Shown here piece by piece: positions 1 through 40,817 of a DNA stretch of 40,855 nt (its first letter is position 1; the number at the start of each line of letters is the position of its first letter). Below the pieces are notes generated by a model. The model searched no databases. It saw only the letters and a program-made list of their open reading frames with translations, and was not told where the DNA came from. The DNA is from Roseinatronobacter thiooxidans (lineage in GTDB: Bacteria; Pseudomonadota; Alphaproteobacteria; Rhodobacterales; Rhodobacteraceae): positions 1-40,855 of the forward strand of contig NZ_MEHT01000047.1 in NCBI RefSeq assembly GCF_001870675.1, written 5' to 3'. Position numbers and translations under genes: made by a program.

Positions 1-38
1 GAAGATAACGCTTGCCAAATAGGGGGCATCCACACACG
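1..38. repeat. 38-bp terminal direct repeat (left copy)
   Basis: Bases 1-38 are identical to bases 40818-40855. The right copy is the right end of the IS110-type element at 39406-40855, including its GGGGGCATCCAC subterminal repeat. In the left copy this end runs straight into the left inverted repeat of the IS3-family element. Either the molecule is circular and the ends overlap, or a second IS110-type copy lies to the left of the window. Confidence 0.95.
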
Positions 39-258
39 CCCCGGGTTTACCGGAGGGTGATTTGTTCATATTTCAGGCGACCATATCGAGTGTGTTCAGG
101 TTTGCATAGAATGCCTCCTCTGCTTCTGCGGGTGTGATGTATCCGATGGGTCCAAATAGCCGGCGGTTGTTATACCAATCGACCCACTTCAGCGTTTCCC
201 ATTCGACTTCGCGCATCGATTTCCACGGTCCGATCTGGTTGATGACCTCGGTTTTGAA

Positions 259-308
259 CATATGAAGGGGACCGTGGCCCCAGTGGGGCCGCGTAAGCCC
301 CGGAATGG
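259..308. repeat. Palindromic segment A inside IS3 orfB
   Basis: It contains GGCCCC-AGT-GGGGCC (276-290) nested within GGGG (267-270) and CCCC (298-301). It lies exactly between NALAESVI and FKTEVINQ of orfB, where six bases would be expected, giving a net excess of about 43 bases and a frameshift. Its ends resemble segments D and E (GAAGG near one end, ATG at the other). Confidence 0.7.
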
Positions 309-970
309 ATGACGGATTCAGCGAGAGCATTGTCATAGGAATCGCCTACTGTTCCAACTGACGGATCAATGCCAACTTCGACAAGGCGCTCGGTATATTT
401 GATCGACAGATATTGCGATCCGCGATCTGAGTGGTGGATCAAAGCCTTGTTATCAGGCGTTTTTCTTTGCCATATTGCTTGATCCAAAGCGTCGAGAACG
501 AACTGCGTCGCCATTGATGTCGAGACCCGCCAGCCGACGATGCGGCGCGCGAAAACGTCGATGACAAAAGCCACATAGACCGTTCCCGACCACGTCGGAA
601 CATAAGTGAAGTCGGAGACCCAGAGTTGATTGGGTCGATCTGCTTTGAATAAGCGGTTTACCTTGTCATCTGGGCATGGCTGAGAGGCGTCTGGGTTCGT
701 GGTGACAACTTTTTTACCACGAACTACCCCCTTTATCCCCAGGCTGCGCATCAATCGCTCGACCGTGCATCGTGCAACCTCCTCACCGTCTCGTCGCAAG
801 ACATGCCAGATCTTCCGTGCCCCATAGAGCTTGCGGTTGTCCTCCCAGGCAGCATTGATCTTGATGCAAAGCTCCGCATCAGACTTTGCACGCACTGACG
901 CCCGATCAGGATCACGCGCGATGGCGCGCCGCTCATAATAGGTGGATGGGGCGATTTGCAGCATTCTGCA

Positions 971-1013
971 CATCGGCCTTCGCCATTGGGCTTGAACCAA
1001 TGGCGCCTTCAAT
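971..1013. repeat. Palindromic segment D inside IS3 orfB
   Basis: It contains a perfect 9-bp inverted repeat CGCCATTGG (981-989) and CCAATGGCG (997-1005) with loop GCTTGAA. It adds about 14 residues in frame to OrfB. The core around the loop, GCTTGAACCAATGGCGC, matches segment C in the IS110-type transposase at all but one of 17 positions. Confidence 0.75.
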
Positions 1014-1080
1014 GGCTCAGCCCCGAACTCACCCCTGTGATCTTCAATGAAAGCAGTCACTTGCGAAACGGGCGGTCGAG

Positions 1081-1123
1081 CATCTCAGGCATCGCTCTAA
1101 GCGATGCCGCGCTGCCTTCGATC
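1081..1123. repeat. Palindromic segment E at the IS3 orfA/orfB junction
   Basis: It contains a perfect 9-bp inverted repeat GGCATCGCT (1088-1096) and AGCGATGCC (1100-1108) with loop CTA, which is the TAG stop of orfA on the minus strand. It lies where IS3 elements normally run from AYFAQ into an alanine- and aspartate-rich tail. Like D it begins CATC and ends with CCTTCRA-type sequence. Confidence 0.7.
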
Positions 1124-1432
1124 CTGGGCAAAATAAGCGGACGCCTTCTTCAGGATTTCGTTGGCCTGACGCAGTTCACGGTTCTCGCGTTCAAGCTCTT
1201 TGATACGAGCCTTCTCGGCACTGGTCGGTCCCGGCCGCTCGCCACCATCACGTTGGGCTTGACGCACCCAATCGCGAAGACTGTCTGGCGAACAGCCCAA
1301 TTTGCTGGCGATCGCAGCATGCGCTGCTGCGTCGCTTCGATATTCGTCACGATGCTCCGCGACAAGCCGCACCGCACGTTCGCGGAACTCGGGTGAATAC
1401 GGCTTCGTGGTCTTCTTTCGATTCTGTTCCAT
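1097..1432 (-). CDS. IS3-family OrfA (helix-turn-helix and leucine zipper), altered C-terminus
   Basis: OrfA supplies the DNA-binding N-terminal part of IS3 transposases and normally joins OrfB through a programmed -1 frameshift. The protein begins MEQNRKK (ATG at 1432; a TTG at 1441 is an alternative), has the HTH region (YSPEFRERAVRLV...LGCSPDSLRDWVRQ) and the coiled-coil region (KARIKELERENRELRQANEILKKASAYFAQ). After AYFAQ the usual ending is replaced by DRRQRGIA and a TAG stop. That stop lies in the loop of a 9-bp palindrome at 1088-1108, so an inserted segment appears to have removed the normal overlap with OrfB. Production of the OrfAB fusion is therefore unlikely. Confidence 0.8.
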   Translation of the reverse strand: MEQNRKKTTKPYSPEFRERAVRLVAEHRDEYRSDAAAHAAIASKLGCSPDSLRDWVRQAQRDGGERPGPTSAEKARIKELERENRELRQANEILKKASAYFAQDRRQRGIA

Positions 1433-1483
1433 GATGGGCAATTCTCCGAGAGTTTTGCCCTCCGGTAAACTCGGGGCGGTTCA

Positions 1484-18462: not shown

Positions 18463-19539
18463 TCATTGCGCCGCCTCTGGCATCGCTCTGCGCCGCAATT
18501 TGCGGATCAGCTCCAGTTCGGCCTGAAAATCGACGTAATGGGGCAGCTTTATATGCTCCAGAAACCCGCTCGACTGGATATTGTCGCAATGCGACAGCAC
18601 GAATTCCTCGTCCTGAGCAGGCGCGCTGCCTGTATCCTCGCCCAGTTCCCGCGTCCTGAGCGCACGATCGACCAGCGCCATCGAGATCGCCTTGCGTTCG
18701 GACTGGCCAAAGACCAGCCCATAGCCGCGGGTAAATTGCGCCGGTTCGGACTTGGACCCCTGAAACTGGTTTACCGTTTCGCATTCCGTCAAAAGGATTT
18801 CCGCAAAATCGATCTCGAAGCCCAGTTCGGGCAGATACGCGCTGACCCGCACATGCCCGATCCGCAATTCGCCTATGAAAGCATGATTGCGCCCGTAGCC
18901 GCGCTGTGTGGAATAGGCCAGCGACAGCAAAAACCCCTCATCGCCGCGCGCAAGTGCTTGCAACCGCAAGGGCCTGCTGGCGGGAAATTCCAGCGGTGCG
19001 CGTGTCAGGTCCGGCACCTCTGCGCCGCCCTCGCGCTCGGGCTGGATCAAACCTTCTTCCCCCAAATGCGACAGGATATGTGGTACAGCACCAAGGCTAG
19101 AGGGGGCTTCGGGTGCAGGTGCAGGCGTGGCGCTTTCAGCCAGACCGAAATCCAGCAGCCGGTGCGTGTAATCAAAGGTCGGCCCCAGCACCTGCCCGCC
19201 CGGTGCGTCCTTGTAGGTGGCGGAAATCCGGCGGATGATCTGCGCCGCGCCTGTGTCAAGCGGCGCGCTGGCCCCGAAACGCGGCAGGGTGGTGCGAAAC
19301 GCGCGGATGAGGAACACAGCCTCGACCACATCGCCGCGCGCCTGTTTCAGTGCCAGCGCGGCAAGGTCGGGGTCATACAGCGACCCTTCTGCCATCACAC
19401 GGTCCACTGCCAGCGCAAGCTGTTCGCGGATCTGGTCCACCGCCAGATCCGGCACAGTCGCGTCCCCGCGCCGCGCCTCGGCCAGCCAGCCATGCGCATT
19501 CTCAATCGCGCGTTCCCCGCCCTTGACGGCAACATACAT
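18463..19539 (-). CDS. phnI: PhnI: C-P lyase core nucleosidase-type subunit
   Basis: A 358-residue subunit that, with PhnG, H and L, attaches phosphonate to the ribose of ATP with displacement of adenine; PhnI alone has nucleosidase activity in E. coli. Recognisable motifs are MYVAVKGGERAIENAH at the start, YSTQRGYGRNHAFIGELRIG and DFAEILLTECETVNQF. FVLSHCDNIQSSGFLEHIKLPHYVDFQ lies near the end. The start ATG overlaps the phnH stop (TGATG). A 76-base gap containing a strong hairpin separates it from phnJ. Confidence 0.96.
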   Translation of the reverse strand: MYVAVKGGERAIENAHGWLAEARRGDATVPDLAVDQIREQLALAVDRVMAEGSLYDPDLAALALKQARGDVVEAVFLIRAFRTTLPRFGASAPLDTGAAQIIRRISATYKDAPGGQVLGPTFDYTHRLLDFGLAESATPAPAPEAPSSLGAVPHILSHLGEEGLIQPEREGGAEVPDLTRAPLEFPASRPLRLQALARGDEGFLLSLAYSTQRGYGRNHAFIGELRIGHVRVSAYLPELGFEIDFAEILLTECETVNQFQGSKSEPAQFTRGYGLVFGQSERKAISMALVDRALRTRELGEDTGSAPAQDEEFVLSHCDNIQSSGFLEHIKLPHYVDFQAELELIRKLRRRAMPEAAQ

Positions 19540-27196: not shown

Positions 27197-28117
27197 CTAG
27201 CGAGAGCTTGCGATTTCGTCTTCGCGCAGGCGCACGGCGGTTTCGTAGAAGTCATGGCCGATTTCCACAAAGCCACCACCCTCGCCGCCGATTGTGGCGT
27301 TGTAGCAATCTGGCTGGCGTTCTTTCATATTCAGGAACAGGTCCATTACCAGCGCGCGCGCCTCTTGTGGCAAATCCTTGCGCAGCACGGTCGGGCCATT
27401 CGGAATCAGGTCGGATGTCCAGATGATCTTGATATCATTCATGTCCAGCAGACCGTTATCGACCATGCGGCGAATATTGCCGCGGCTGTAGCCTTCGGCA
27501 TGTTCGCCCAGCAGTGACGACCACGTGGCGGCGGCGTCATACTGGCCCTGCAACACGGCGATCACGCCTTGCTCATGACCGCCCGAAAACCCGACGCGCC
27601 CGAAATACGCATCCTCGATCCCCGCAAGGCGCAGTTCTGCGCGCGGGAACAGATAGCCGGATGCCGAATTTGCATCGGCATAGGCAAGGCTGCGGCCTGC
27701 CATATCCTCCAGCGTTTCAATGCCGCTATCGGCGCGCGTGACAATGACAGAGTAATACCCAAGCGAGCCGTCCACATTGGCCGAGGTCATCACCACGTCC
27801 ACGGCTTCGGGGTCTTGCAGATATATGCCAGCATAGCCCGATGCGCCCAGTCCGGCATGGTGCAACTGACCGGCCAGCAGCCCCTGCATCACGCCTGCGT
27901 AATCGGCGGCGGGATACAGCTCGACCGGAACGCCCAATGTGTCGGTCATCAACTCTTGCAGGCAGGAATAGCGGCGCAAACGGTCGGCTTCGTTTTCGCC
28001 GGACAGAATGCCAATATTGTAAGTGCCGAAATCCGCGCGCCAGTCGGCAGCGGCGGGGGTCACAGTGGACACAAGACACGCAAGTGTCGCGGCTATGCCA
28101 GTGAAAGTCTTGGTCAT
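27197..28117 (-). CDS. phnD: Phosphonate-binding protein PhnD (second of a tandem pair)
   Basis: A 306-residue periplasmic solute-binding protein with a Sec signal (TGIAATLACLVSTVTPAAA, cleavage near residue 25). The N-terminal ligand loop is YNIGILSGENEADRLRRYSC, with GVMQGLLAGQLHHAGLGASGYA and YADANSASGYLFPRAEL following as in PhnD. The C-terminal domain includes IIWTSDLIPNGPTVLRKDLP. It is a clear paralogue of the gene just upstream (28217-29143), but differs at many positions facing the ligand, such as HHAGLGAS against DYAALGAS. The pair may widen the substrate range. Confidence 0.94.
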   Translation of the reverse strand: MTKTFTGIAATLACLVSTVTPAAADWRADFGTYNIGILSGENEADRLRRYSCLQELMTDTLGVPVELYPAADYAGVMQGLLAGQLHHAGLGASGYAGIYLQDPEAVDVVMTSANVDGSLGYYSVIVTRADSGIETLEDMAGRSLAYADANSASGYLFPRAELRLAGIEDAYFGRVGFSGGHEQGVIAVLQGQYDAAATWSSLLGEHAEGYSRGNIRRMVDNGLLDMNDIKIIWTSDLIPNGPTVLRKDLPQEARALVMDLFLNMKERQPDCYNATIGGEGGGFVEIGHDFYETAVRLREDEIASSR

Positions 28118-28180
28118 GGTTTTCGTCCTTGTGGTGGATGAAGAACACGCCCCCGCAACTCTCCTCCCGCGTGGGCAATG

Positions 28181-28207
28181 AAAAAGGGCAGCCCGAACGG
28201 GCCACCC
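28181..28207 (-). terminator. Hairpin with U-tract between the two phnD genes
   Basis: On the minus strand GGGtgGCCC-GTTC-GGGCtgCCC is followed by TTTTT (28181-28185). The 9-position stem has two mismatches. It lies 10 bases after the phnD2 stop and probably acts as a partial terminator, giving more transcript for the first binding protein than for the genes behind it. Confidence 0.7.
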
Positions 28208-28216
28208 TTGTCTTGC

Positions 28217-29143
28217 TTAGCGCGAACCGGCCAATTCCTCGCGGCGCATCTCGACGATGCCCTCGAAGAAGTCATGGTCAACACTCACCCAACCCTGACC
28301 CTCACCGAAAGAGATGTCGTAATAGCACTGCGCGTCGGTTTCGAGCTGGTTGGCCAGATAATCGCTGACGATGTCTTTAACCTCTTGCGGCAGCGCCTGA
28401 CGGATCACCACAGGGCCATTCGGAATGATCGGGCTTTCCCAGATGATCCGCAGATCGGACATATCCAGCAGTCCATTGTCAATCATGCGACGCAGGTTGC
28501 CACGGGTATACCCCTCTGCCGGATCGCCCTGACCGGAAGCCCATGTCACGCCAGCATCATACTGGCCTTGCAAAACAGCGATCACAGCCTGTTCATGACC
28601 ACCGCCGAAACCTGTGCGGCTGAAGAAGTCTTCTTCCACGATCCCGGCGCGGCGCAACTCGAAACGCGGCACGATATAGCCGGAGGTTGAATTAGGGTCC
28701 GCATAGGCCAGCGAATGGCCTTCCATGTCTTCCAGCGAATGAATATCGCTATCCGCGCGCACATACATCGGCGCGATGTAACCTGTGGACCCGTCCGCTT
28801 CTGCCGAAACAAAAATCGGCTCTACAGCATTGGCGTCTTGCAGATAGATACCTGCATAGGCCGAAGCGCCCAGTGCTGCATAATCCAGTTGGCCGGCCAG
28901 AAGCCCCTGCATCACGCCTGCATAATCGGGGGCGGGGAACATTTCGACCGGGACGCCCAGACGCTCTTCCAGCGCCACGCGCAGACAGTCGTTATTGCGC
29001 AGGCGGTCGGCTTCATTCTCGCCGCCCAGCAGGCCAATGCGGAAGACAGGCAGGTCTGAGCGCCAGTCAGCGCTGGCGGTCAGGGGAAAGGTGCTTAGCG
29101 CGGTCGCAGTGACCAAAAGCGCGGCGATAGCCTTGGTTTTCAT
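28217..29143 (-). CDS. phnD: Phosphonate-binding protein PhnD (first of a tandem pair)
   Basis: A 308-residue periplasmic binding protein, first gene of the importer operon. Sec signal MKTKAIAALLVTATALS...TASA with cleavage near residue 26. Ligand-loop motif FRIGLLGGENEADRLRNNDC, GVMQGLLAGQLDYAALGASAYA, YADPNSTSGYIVPRFEL and IIWESPIIPNGPVVIRQALP. The start is ATG at 29143 with a gag-rich site; a start 39 bases upstream is unlikely. The presence of two PhnD proteins for one PhnC-E1-E2 set suggests that different phosphonates, or phosphonates and phosphite or phosphate esters, feed the same channel. Confidence 0.94.
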   Translation of the reverse strand: MKTKAIAALLVTATALSTFPLTASADWRSDLPVFRIGLLGGENEADRLRNNDCLRVALEERLGVPVEMFPAPDYAGVMQGLLAGQLDYAALGASAYAGIYLQDANAVEPIFVSAEADGSTGYIAPMYVRADSDIHSLEDMEGHSLAYADPNSTSGYIVPRFELRRAGIVEEDFFSRTGFGGGHEQAVIAVLQGQYDAGVTWASGQGDPAEGYTRGNLRRMIDNGLLDMSDLRIIWESPIIPNGPVVIRQALPQEVKDIVSDYLANQLETDAQCYYDISFGEGQGWVSVDHDFFEGIVEMRREELAGSR

Positions 29144-29580
29144 GAATGATCTCCAGATCAGGATGGAAGCAATGATCCCCATCGCGGGAACTCCGGTCTG
29201 ATCTCAGGATTCGGTAACTTTGGCGTAACGGTTCTGTAAAGAATTCATGAAATTTAGCACGCGTCTTGGCGTAAAGTGGCGGTTCTGTGAAATTGCGCCA
29301 GCCATGACAAGGATACCCCGGCCCGATCTGCCGCAGCGGTTCGGGCTTGCAGTCGCTCTCAGGACCGCGCGCAAACCGAGTGGGAACACGCGGGGCATGC
29401 GCAACAACTGGCACATACCCAGCGGCATCTTGCACATCAATCTTCCGCCCCGGCGCGCCGATCTCACGCAGGCAGCGAAAATTGTCATGCGTGTTTCCCC
29501 GCCCGATACGGCTTGCACCGCGATGACCATAGGCACCGGCACCCACGGGCGATAGAAAGGGCCGGACGCTGGCTTTGTCG
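29144..29580. promoter_or_regulatory. 437-bp leader region of the phnDCE operon with imperfect direct repeat
   Basis: It contains two related blocks, 29219-29240 and 29265-29292, both reading ttggcgtaa...cggttctgt.aa on the plus strand. They lie about 76-150 bases upstream of phnD2 and could be regulator binding sites. No reading frame in the region looks real. A PhoB box could not be fixed with certainty. Confidence 0.5.
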
Positions 29581-39405: not shown

Positions 39406-40231
39406 CTGATGCGGTGGATGCCCCCACCCGCCGGCATCGTATACCATGACGGTTCTATATTCGCTTAGTGGAGGGCACATCGATGACATCAAAGATCAGT
39501 ATTTTAGCGATCGACTTGGCAAGAGGCAGCTTTCAGGTCTGCGCTGTTGGGCAAGACGGGATGGTTGTTTTCAACCGCGCTATGTCAAGAACGCGTTTGG
39601 CAACGCTGCTGGCTGACCACCCTGCCTGCATTGTGGCAATGGAGGCTTGTGCCACCTCGCATCACTGGGGCCGTTTGGCGCAAAGTAACGGTCATGAGGT
39701 TCGGCTTGTACCGGCTGCTTACGTGAAGCCGTTTGTAAAGCGACAGAAGAATGATCGTGCGGATGCAGAGGCCATCGCTGAAGCTGCGTTGCGCCCGACA
39801 ATGCGGTTTGTGGCAGTAAAGAGCGCAGAAACCCAAGGCCGTGCTGTCGCATTCCGAACGCATCAATGCATGGTTCGACAGCGCACGCAGCTTATCAATG
39901 CCCTGCGCGGCCATTTGGCTGAGTTCGGGTTGGTGGCACCCAAAGGGCCCGCAAGTCTCAAGCTGCTTGAGAACGCGCTTGCTGACGAACGCACAGATTT
40001 GCCCGAGCCAGTCCGCCACATGGGATCGATCTATGTCGAGCAGATTGCGCGTCTCACCGACGTTATTGACCGGCTTTCCGATGAATTGGAAAGCTCATCG
40101 AAGACAGATGAGCAATTGCGTAGGCTATGCACTATCCCCGGTATCGGCCCTGTCACCGCAGGCGCTGTTGCGGCATTCGCCCCTGATCTTGATACGTTTG
40201 ACAGCGGCCGCAACTTCGCCGCCTGGCTGGG

Positions 40232-40273
40232 CGTGCGGTCCGTCTCTCGGACGGATCGCGTTCCGGTCCGCAC
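40232..40273. repeat. Palindromic segment B inside IS110-type transposase
   Basis: GTGCGG (40233-40238) and CCGCAC (40268-40273) form the outer inverted repeat, with an inner hairpin GTCCG-tctct-CGGAC (40238-40252). It lies between FAAWLG and PRQRSTGGK-type sequence and shifts the frame by +1, consistent with about 40 extra bases. Its sequence is not clearly related to C, D and E; only length and architecture agree. Confidence 0.65.
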
Positions 40274-40476
40274 TGCCTCGACAAAGGTCGACGGGCGGAA
40301 AGGCCAGACTGGGATCGGTCAGCAAGATGGGGCAGACCGACATCCGTCGATTGCTGATCATCGGTGCCATGAGCGTGATCCGCTGGGTGGTTCGCAAAGG
40401 CGGTAGTGCAAACCGCTGGCTGGCCGCACTGGTCGCGCGCAAGCCGAAGATGGTGGCAGCCGTTGCCTTGGCGAAT

Positions 40477-40517
40477 AGTGAGCGGTGCAGCGCCACTGGT
40501 TCAAGCGCACCGCGAAC
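40477..40517. repeat. Palindromic segment C inside IS110-type transposase
   Basis: GCGGTGC (40482-40488) and GCACCGC (40507-40513) are a perfect 7-bp inverted repeat. On the minus strand it reads GCTTGAACCAGTGGCGC in the centre, one base different from segment D in the IS3 element, and both are preceded by GGCC-TTCGC-like sequence. It adds residues in frame (SERCSATGSSAPRT). Confidence 0.75.
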
Positions 40518-40817
40518 GGCCCGGATGATCTGGGCGCTTTCGACAAAGCAGCAGAACTATAGAATGGCGTGACCTGATCCTGAGAAGGAGAAAGGCACGA
40601 CATGGCCGCAAGGCCAGGGTGAGCGATCGACGAGGAGTACGCGATACGGACTTCGAAGTTCAAGGCAGGGAAATTCAGACCCGGGGCTCGAGCGCTCGGC
40701 ACGCTCTCTGAACCGATGTGAACCCAGCCTTCCGAACAGCATGACCCACCCGTGGCGTCATAGAAGGCCACATCGTGAGGCCTGACACACGTCCGATCGA
40801 AGACCCCGCCGAAAATC

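Follow-up and report, generated by a model that had tools for sequence, protein, structure and literature searches.

Palindromic inserts in IS3 and IS110 transposase genes of Roseinatronobacter thiooxidans as probable copies of small mobile DNA hairpin elements of Rhodobacterales

Five short segments interrupt two insertion sequences (IS) of Roseinatronobacter thiooxidans, and the question is whether these segments are mobile DNA. The window, which is the whole stretch of 40,855 nt analysed here, is contig C47 of a 3.5-Mb genome of 50 contigs, and carries an IS3 copy at its start and an IS110 copy at its end. The segments are termed A, D and E in the IS3 copy, and B and C in the IS110 copy (Table 1). 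A sequence-only reading had regarded them as one family of hairpin-forming inserts in conserved transposase sequence. The results described below indicate, with a probability of roughly 0.8, that each insert is a copy of a mobile but non-autonomous DNA mini-element, palindromic and about 40-47 nt long, of a kind that is spread across Rhodobacterales. Insertion is deduced from the comparison of genomes, not from events seen in real time.

The IS3 copy is compared with three plasmid relatives, from Loktanella salsilacus, Pseudorhodobacter turbinis and Paracoccus yeei (L310-L312), and the IS110 copy with four relatives (L313-L316), one of which (L313) is that of Roseinatronobacter sp. S2. Alignment with these relatives shows that all five segments are real insertions. 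A, D and E are all missing from the three plasmid relatives, against each of which the window IS3 copy has the net gains given in Table 1; its length is about 1447 nt, as compared with about 1320 nt in the plasmid relatives spanning it. A is also missing from the IS3 copy of a relative of the genus (L050), which has a different palindromic insert nearby. B is missing from all four IS110 relatives, and C from three of them (L314-L316). The claim that conserved transposase sequence is interrupted therefore holds, because relatives without the segments are found at the same points. Intact relatives carrying the segments had been named as evidence against insertion, and one exists for C: the IS110 copy of Roseinatronobacter sp. 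S2, which is the closest relative of the window gene (90% identity), carries C in frame in an annotated 350-aa transposase that is otherwise intact. At every insert site, the relatives have about 4-5 unrelated bases, which are GGCC for A (L050), AGAT for C, TCGA for D and about 5 nt for E, as read by eye (for B, see Table 1).

As had been claimed, D and C add residues in frame, 13 and 12 respectively. A and B shift the frame, also as claimed, and orfA ends in E; but E, which had been credited only with a stop, shifts the frame as well. A sits in orfB immediately 3' of the NALAES region, which we take to be the DDE glutamate region. An identical 43-nt copy of D is present at the same IS3 site in L200, with flanks that are 80-82% identical. 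The refined ends of A, D and C include outer complementary arms. The ends CAT and CCTTCRA, which D, E and A had been said to share, are not element ends: CATC before D is target sequence (AAATC and AGATC in relatives), and CCTTC of D lies inside the element. A hairpin had been ascribed to each of the five segments. Four of them fold as DNA with z scores of -2.7 (A), -3.5 (D), -2.7 (B) and a value for E within this range (Table 1). The z score of C is only -1.4, and 19 of 200 shuffles fold equally well, so that C rests on its family match.

Table 1. Inserts and host insertion sequences in the window
Feature	Position	Strand	Description
Insert A	261..307	+	47 nt; arms TAT/ATG; net +43; frame-shifting; in orfB; absent from L050 and L310-L312; A model 73.8 bits
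Insert D	978..1020	+	43 nt; arms CT/AG; TC..TC; core 982-1016; net +39; in frame in orfB; D model 68.8 bits
Insert E	1081..1123 (about)		End of orfA; net +37; absent from L310-L312; DNA-fold z -2.9
Insert B	about 40233..40273	+	41 nt; diverged, D-like; net +37; replaces about TTGG of relatives
Insert C	40478..40517	-	40 nt; arms GT/AC; TC..TC; core 40482-40513; net +36; in frame; D model 47.8 bits
IS3-family element with A, D and E	37..1483	-	Extent from plasmid matches; rve, HTH_21 and HTH_Tnp_1 domains
IS3 orfB reading frame	170..1060	-	Broken up by A and D
IS3 orfA reading frame	1097..1441	-	Terminates within E
IS110-family transposase gene	39483..40560	+	DEDD_Tnp_IS110 and Transposase_20 domains; B shifts frame, C in frame

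Several other features of the window are recorded here. The same 38 bases are present at both contig ends (1-38 and 40818-40855), as is expected for a circular contig or for an assembler overlap at a repeat. An IS5-type (DDE_Tnp_1) remnant in two frames at 1483-2300 adjoins the IS3 copy. It shares 93% identity with part of a Roseinatronobacter sp. S2 plasmid; since the plasmid match is full length, no palindromic insert lies between this remnant and the IS3 copy. Rfam gives no gathering-level match in the window. At E<=1, the only match touching elements in ten loci is a sub-threshold one to ALIL, the frameshift pseudoknot of IS3 elements, which spans the orfA/orfB junction at 947-1139 (L001; 32.8 bits against a cut-off of 50). 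Direct repeats at 27612-29038, with 71-81% identity and a spacing of 1023, suggest two tandem related genes. According to Pfam, the gene at 28217-29182 encodes a phosphonate-binding protein; phnI is located at 18463-19539.

The inserts are not a single family as had been proposed; there are at least four families of such elements, termed D, A, F and G. D and C are assigned to one hairpin family, the D family, as had been claimed in spite of their location in unrelated IS, and A to a second one. With the scores given in Table 1, D and C are well separated from the next match of the D model in the window (15.2 bits), and A from the next match of the A model (15.0 bits), although D, C and A themselves belong to the sequences from which the models are built. 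In a check without models, the A and D segments alone match many other places in genomes of the genus. B is matched by the D model exactly at its position with 10.5 bits (E=2.5, seventh of 25 window matches), which hints weakly that B is a D relative. E is matched by the A model on the - strand with 8.8 bits (E=2.8, seventh of 22 window matches), and its likeness to A is similarly weak. The G-family model gives no match at E, which is left without a family.

In a D or A element, the hairpin is conserved at its apex, the stem varies in sequence but remains complementary, and short complementary outer arms form the ends. The layout of the D family is a stem of the GCCNNNN type, NGC, the apical sequence TYGAACCRRTGGC, GCN and the stem again, enclosed by complementary outer dinucleotides. 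The hairpin is flanked by TC..TC in the form D1 and by GTC..GAC in the form D2. In the D structure, the outer arms are paired, TC/TC forms an internal loop, the two-part stem has 10 bp and the apical loop 13 nt. The complement of the apical part reads TTCRAGC, presumably like a T-loop; an origin of D from a tRNA T-arm is rejected, because no Rfam tRNA model matched an element in the window or in ten loci.

Pairing in the D family is indicated by changes that preserve it. The two outer-arm pairs are complementary in 96 and 79 of 101 distinct D1 copies, as compared with 45 and 41 expected. The covariation is 0.466, against 0.113 when shuffled, with 96 double-sided and 5 one-sided changes in 49 sequences, of which 45 were chosen by hand from 92 non-redundant copies and four are variants. 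In this alignment, 91% of the pair cells are standard pairs, and the signal is lost when the partner is slid. The D copies used for the arm, empty-site and covariation counts were pre-picked by requiring five of six complementary stem bases, and the covariation of D is inflated because of this stem criterion. A selection-free check was made with 124 pattern matches, the 3' part of which is unselected. In 103 of them, the 3' arm matches at least 6 of 7 stem bases, as compared with 2.9% of places drawn at random from these loci. Of the 109 arms that were located, 99 are complementary at the one stem base that varies. The A family, for which no stem criterion was used, shows covariation of 0.341 against 0.091 when shuffled, with 30 double-sided and 3 one-sided changes in 17 sequences (15 kept of 17 motif matches, and L051 and L094). 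The G family shows covariation of 0.338 against 0.113, with 11 one-sided changes in a ragged alignment; its pair counts are biased, because only the 23 of 34 motif matches that looked hairpin-like by eye were kept. The small number of one-sided (wobble) changes in D and A suggests recognition of the hairpin at the DNA level, or copying of one arm from the other.

A homologous empty site is found for 34 of at most 101 D1 copies. Comparison with these sites shows that an element of about 40-43 nt, with the outer arms counted as part of it, is put in place of 4 nt (18 copies), 5 nt (15 copies) or 3 nt (one copy) of the target. The target duplication for which a search had been recommended is seen at none of these 34 sites; instead, 4-5 bases of the target are exchanged for the element. 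Where 4 nt are replaced (18 copies), filled and empty sites diverge over positions -3 to +2 by 0.44, 0.78 and 0.61 on the minus side and by 0.89 and 0.89 on the plus side, against 0.06-0.22 at the other positions within 8 nt. These counts are uninformative on a preference for IS, because empty sites are easier to find in multi-copy DNA. Insertion recurs at the same place. One IS5 site is occupied in several genomes (L091, L122, L154 and L158), of which L091 and L122 are nearer to empty copies (88% and 82%, respectively) than to the filled L154 (71-76% and 70-73%, respectively). Functional constraint at shared sites was considered, as the elements are more alike than their flanks; it is dropped, because L091 and L122 are nearer to empty copies and re-insertion explains the likeness.

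Further copies, for which a search had also been recommended, are abundant. A D pattern scan of genome DNA gives at least 119 stretches with copies; among those listed, two are from Ciceribacter, three are labelled only Alphaproteobacteria and the others are from Rhodobacterales, as read from their names. Six viral contigs also contain the D pattern. In searches that scored 150 first-look candidates per genome, 36 genomes of the genus were covered. Of these, 31, among them the own genome, have D matches (121 matches at E<=0.01), 11 have A matches and one has a G match (at E<=0.001). A motif-free comparison of homologous loci gives 139 indels with a net length of 28-60 nt, which are sorted by crude motifs into 78 D, 24 F, 19 G, 7 A and 11 without family (about five of which read as D variants); these proportions are biased, because most loci had been fetched for D. 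Homologous IS copies thus differ by the palindromic families F and G as well. The typical net gain of D and A elements is 35-45 nt, and their length about 40-47 nt. The proposal of a small mobile or copied palindromic element is supported by these many copies and by the 34 D copies with an empty site. One relative of the genus (G017) has 14 A matches, 13 of which have long shared flanks, and the one examined sits between open frames. The A element of these 14 loci, which include L285, L291 and L294, belongs to a repeat with a length, by eye, of about 100 nt, and the repeat resembles a REP-like amplification. These 14 copies in an intergenic-looking repeat mean that A is not specific to IS.

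The surroundings of the elements were examined at 102 genome-contig loci (76 with D1 and 26 others), with one test fragment, the longest open frame, beside each element. A transposase-type gene adjoins the element in 54 of the 76 D1 loci: 23 are linked to the IS3 or IS5 proteins of the window by chained phmmer, and 31 of the other 53 have a Pfam transposase-type domain, with L131 and L152 below the curated cut-off. A second fragment was tried for seven D1 loci with two successes, a second try that was not given to the controls. The domains in the test fragments include rve_3 (13), DDE_Tnp_IS66 (6), DDE_Tnp_1 (5), Transposase_mut (4) and those of other transposase families. In contrast, the 81 control fragments from the same loci give no transposase among the 25 families listed, with 63 single-member families standing outside these. 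Four of the 26 other loci are linked to the window IS proteins by phmmer. At the remaining 22 of the 76 D1 loci, no transposase is found; ordinary genes lie near L175 and L205, and the transposase-negative L123, L149, L207 and L208 still align to IS proteins elsewhere. In the own genome, all six D matches (in IS3, in IS110, twice in IS21 and in an IS66 pair sharing one insertion) and both A matches are within IS copies. D1 occurs in unrelated IS families, and several element families can occupy one IS copy together. D2 copies are located in G/C-rich palindromes and look intergenic, and most plasmid D and A matches have no annotated gene beneath them in a table that omits pseudogenes. The claim that the elements land preferentially in IS genes is supported for D1; as D2 and the A copies of G017 look intergenic, the preference is strong, but not absolute.

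Individual IS copies illustrate how the elements are carried. In Roseobacter sp. SK209-2-6, an IS copy with the same three inserts is present at two sites (L168 and L178) with different flanks and 99.7% identity over 1183 nt. The coding sequence of this copy is short of about 230 nt, so that movement in trans or duplication accounts for its two sites; for the same reason, the copy is rejected as an example of an active IS with a frame-disrupting element. The IS66 pair of the own genome has the D insertion in common; A is present in one copy only, and the other has its own small frameshift. One of the IS66 copies (L098, contig C24) also contains a group II intron at about 122-239 and 297-320 (Rfam group-II-D1D4-2, 115 bits), within about 20 nt (by eye) of the spot that is occupied by the A element in the other copy (L010). 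In the IS3-type elements of six genomes (L104, L117, L128, L149, L194 and L210), D is located at the orfA/orfB junction and is open in the orfB frame. Here, D is an in-frame passenger, either tolerated or used, and may have turned into a linker or a frameshift stimulator. In several of these copies, the preceding A-rich stretch resembles a slippery site. The IS3-type copy at 2661-3671 of L194 has four catalogued inserts besides the junction D, and two of them, with a net length of 36 nt, are read through in frame.

The apparent preference for IS genes could also arise from insertion at any place, followed by the loss of copies outside IS genes. This possibility, which concerns the bias and not the nature of the elements, is a serious one, although we do not favour it. 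IS genes are dispensable, intergenic-looking D2 copies exist, and hitch-hiking on IS could still mimic targeting. However, intergenic DNA is more plentiful than IS DNA, and D1 nevertheless lies beside transposase-type genes at 54 of 76 loci; likewise, all six D matches of the own genome are in IS, although this genome has only four rve-domain matches. Survivorship alone could account for part of the enrichment. That the segments are normal coding sequence of these IS lineages, which has been deleted in the relatives, is scarcely credible. In its favour, C is in frame in the intact transposase of Roseinatronobacter sp. S2, and D has been retained between orfA and orfB in the IS3 group. But the same elements are present in unrelated IS families and outside IS, exact restoration of conserved frames by deletion would be needed in family after family, and the empty sites and the alignments with relatives contradict it.

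Two other explanations accept the inserts as such. One assumes that the elements are removed or bypassed in expression, as mini-introns or in the manner of mitochondrial byps, so that the transposases stay active. Many stretches between inserts are stop-free, the net lengths ignore the frame, and 65-75% of the mismatches fall at one codon position in some pairs of IS filled at the same site, as compared with 40-60% in others. Same-site insertions are partly independent, however, so that selection may predate them; some copies also have frameshifts or deletions, and in the six-genome IS3 group the orfB frame simply runs open through the element. Bypass is therefore highly improbable. The other assumes REP-type elements mobilised by a RAYT (Y1 HuH transposase), as small hairpins, D2 copies beginning with CGTC and intergenic-looking copies might suggest. 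It is improbable as well: among the 36 genomes of the genus, only two have Y1_Tnp matches above the cut-off, four have them at E<=0.001 and the own genome has none, whereas D is present in 31; moreover, the arms are paired, without an unpaired tag, and the loop and stem sizes are unlike those of the CGTC families in PMC3733652.

We therefore prefer to regard the inserts as mobile DNA mini-elements in their own right. Such an element would move as a DNA hairpin, recognised by a putative trans-acting enzyme at a short, loosely specific target. Copies landing in host genes would be purged, whereas those in IS genes would survive, ride IS copies that are copied in trans and so pass between species. 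Frame-breaking copies should disable the IS, and some in-frame ones would be tolerated, such as C in Roseinatronobacter sp. S2. No mobilising gene was found, and the own genome has no Y1_Tnp/RAYT match. It is tempting, but rather unlikely, that the unrelated hairpin families share one putative machinery that swaps a 4-5 bp target for a hairpin and is steered to IS genes, either as a hyperparasite riding IS or as a host process disarming them. If the mini-elements are mobile as proposed, a class of mobile elements that is invisible in annotation and breaks transposases is widespread in the IS genes of a large, much-studied order of bacteria, which bears on the limits to IS expansion and on how RPE-like elements move. 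To our knowledge, the mobility of RPE-like elements has not yet been explained. The mechanism by which hairpin DNA is inserted becomes accessible to tests through the 4-5 bp swap, the pairing of the outer arms and the rarity of wobble changes.

Searches of the open-access literature by topic and by element sequence strings found no description of these families. The elements had been likened to the Rickettsia palindromic elements (RPEs), and this comparison is apt for behaviour and not for membership. Like RPEs, they are palindromic selfish DNA within protein-coding genes, with several families together and some copies in frame. RPEs reside in metabolic genes of another order of bacteria, whereas the elements described here reside mostly in IS genes, and we know of no 4-5 bp replacement for RPEs. 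The frame is not kept either: the net lengths of the 78 D indels leave remainders of 0, 1 and 2 on division by three in 23, 26 and 29 cases, without bias. RPEs are about 150 bp long according to PMC10969869, as compared with about 40-47 nt here. The distinction is drawn from described features, not from sequence.

The CGTC-tagged REPs of alphaproteobacteria are likewise small hairpins with stems that vary within families, and no dedicated transposase is known for them (PMC3733652); many D2 copies also begin with CGTC. They are described with an unpaired tag, stems of 8-9 bp, loops of 4-5 nt and mostly a CCA tail (PMC3733652, section 6), whereas in D, compared by description, the outer arms are paired, the two-part stem is 10 bp long and the apical loop comprises 13 nt. 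The REP/RAYT systems and REPINs are non-autonomous hairpins dispersed through genomes, as are these elements; but the own genome is without RAYT, and many copies here are intragenic whereas theirs are extragenic. MITEs are also short and non-autonomous and have inverted repeats; however, they are far longer, no target duplication is seen here (3-5 nt are replaced instead), and the terminal repeats of the resident IS were not recognised in the elements on an unsystematic look. The elements thus work like RPEs and REPs, but lack the length and the frame of RPEs, the tag, the loop and the RAYT of REPs, and the target duplication of MITEs.
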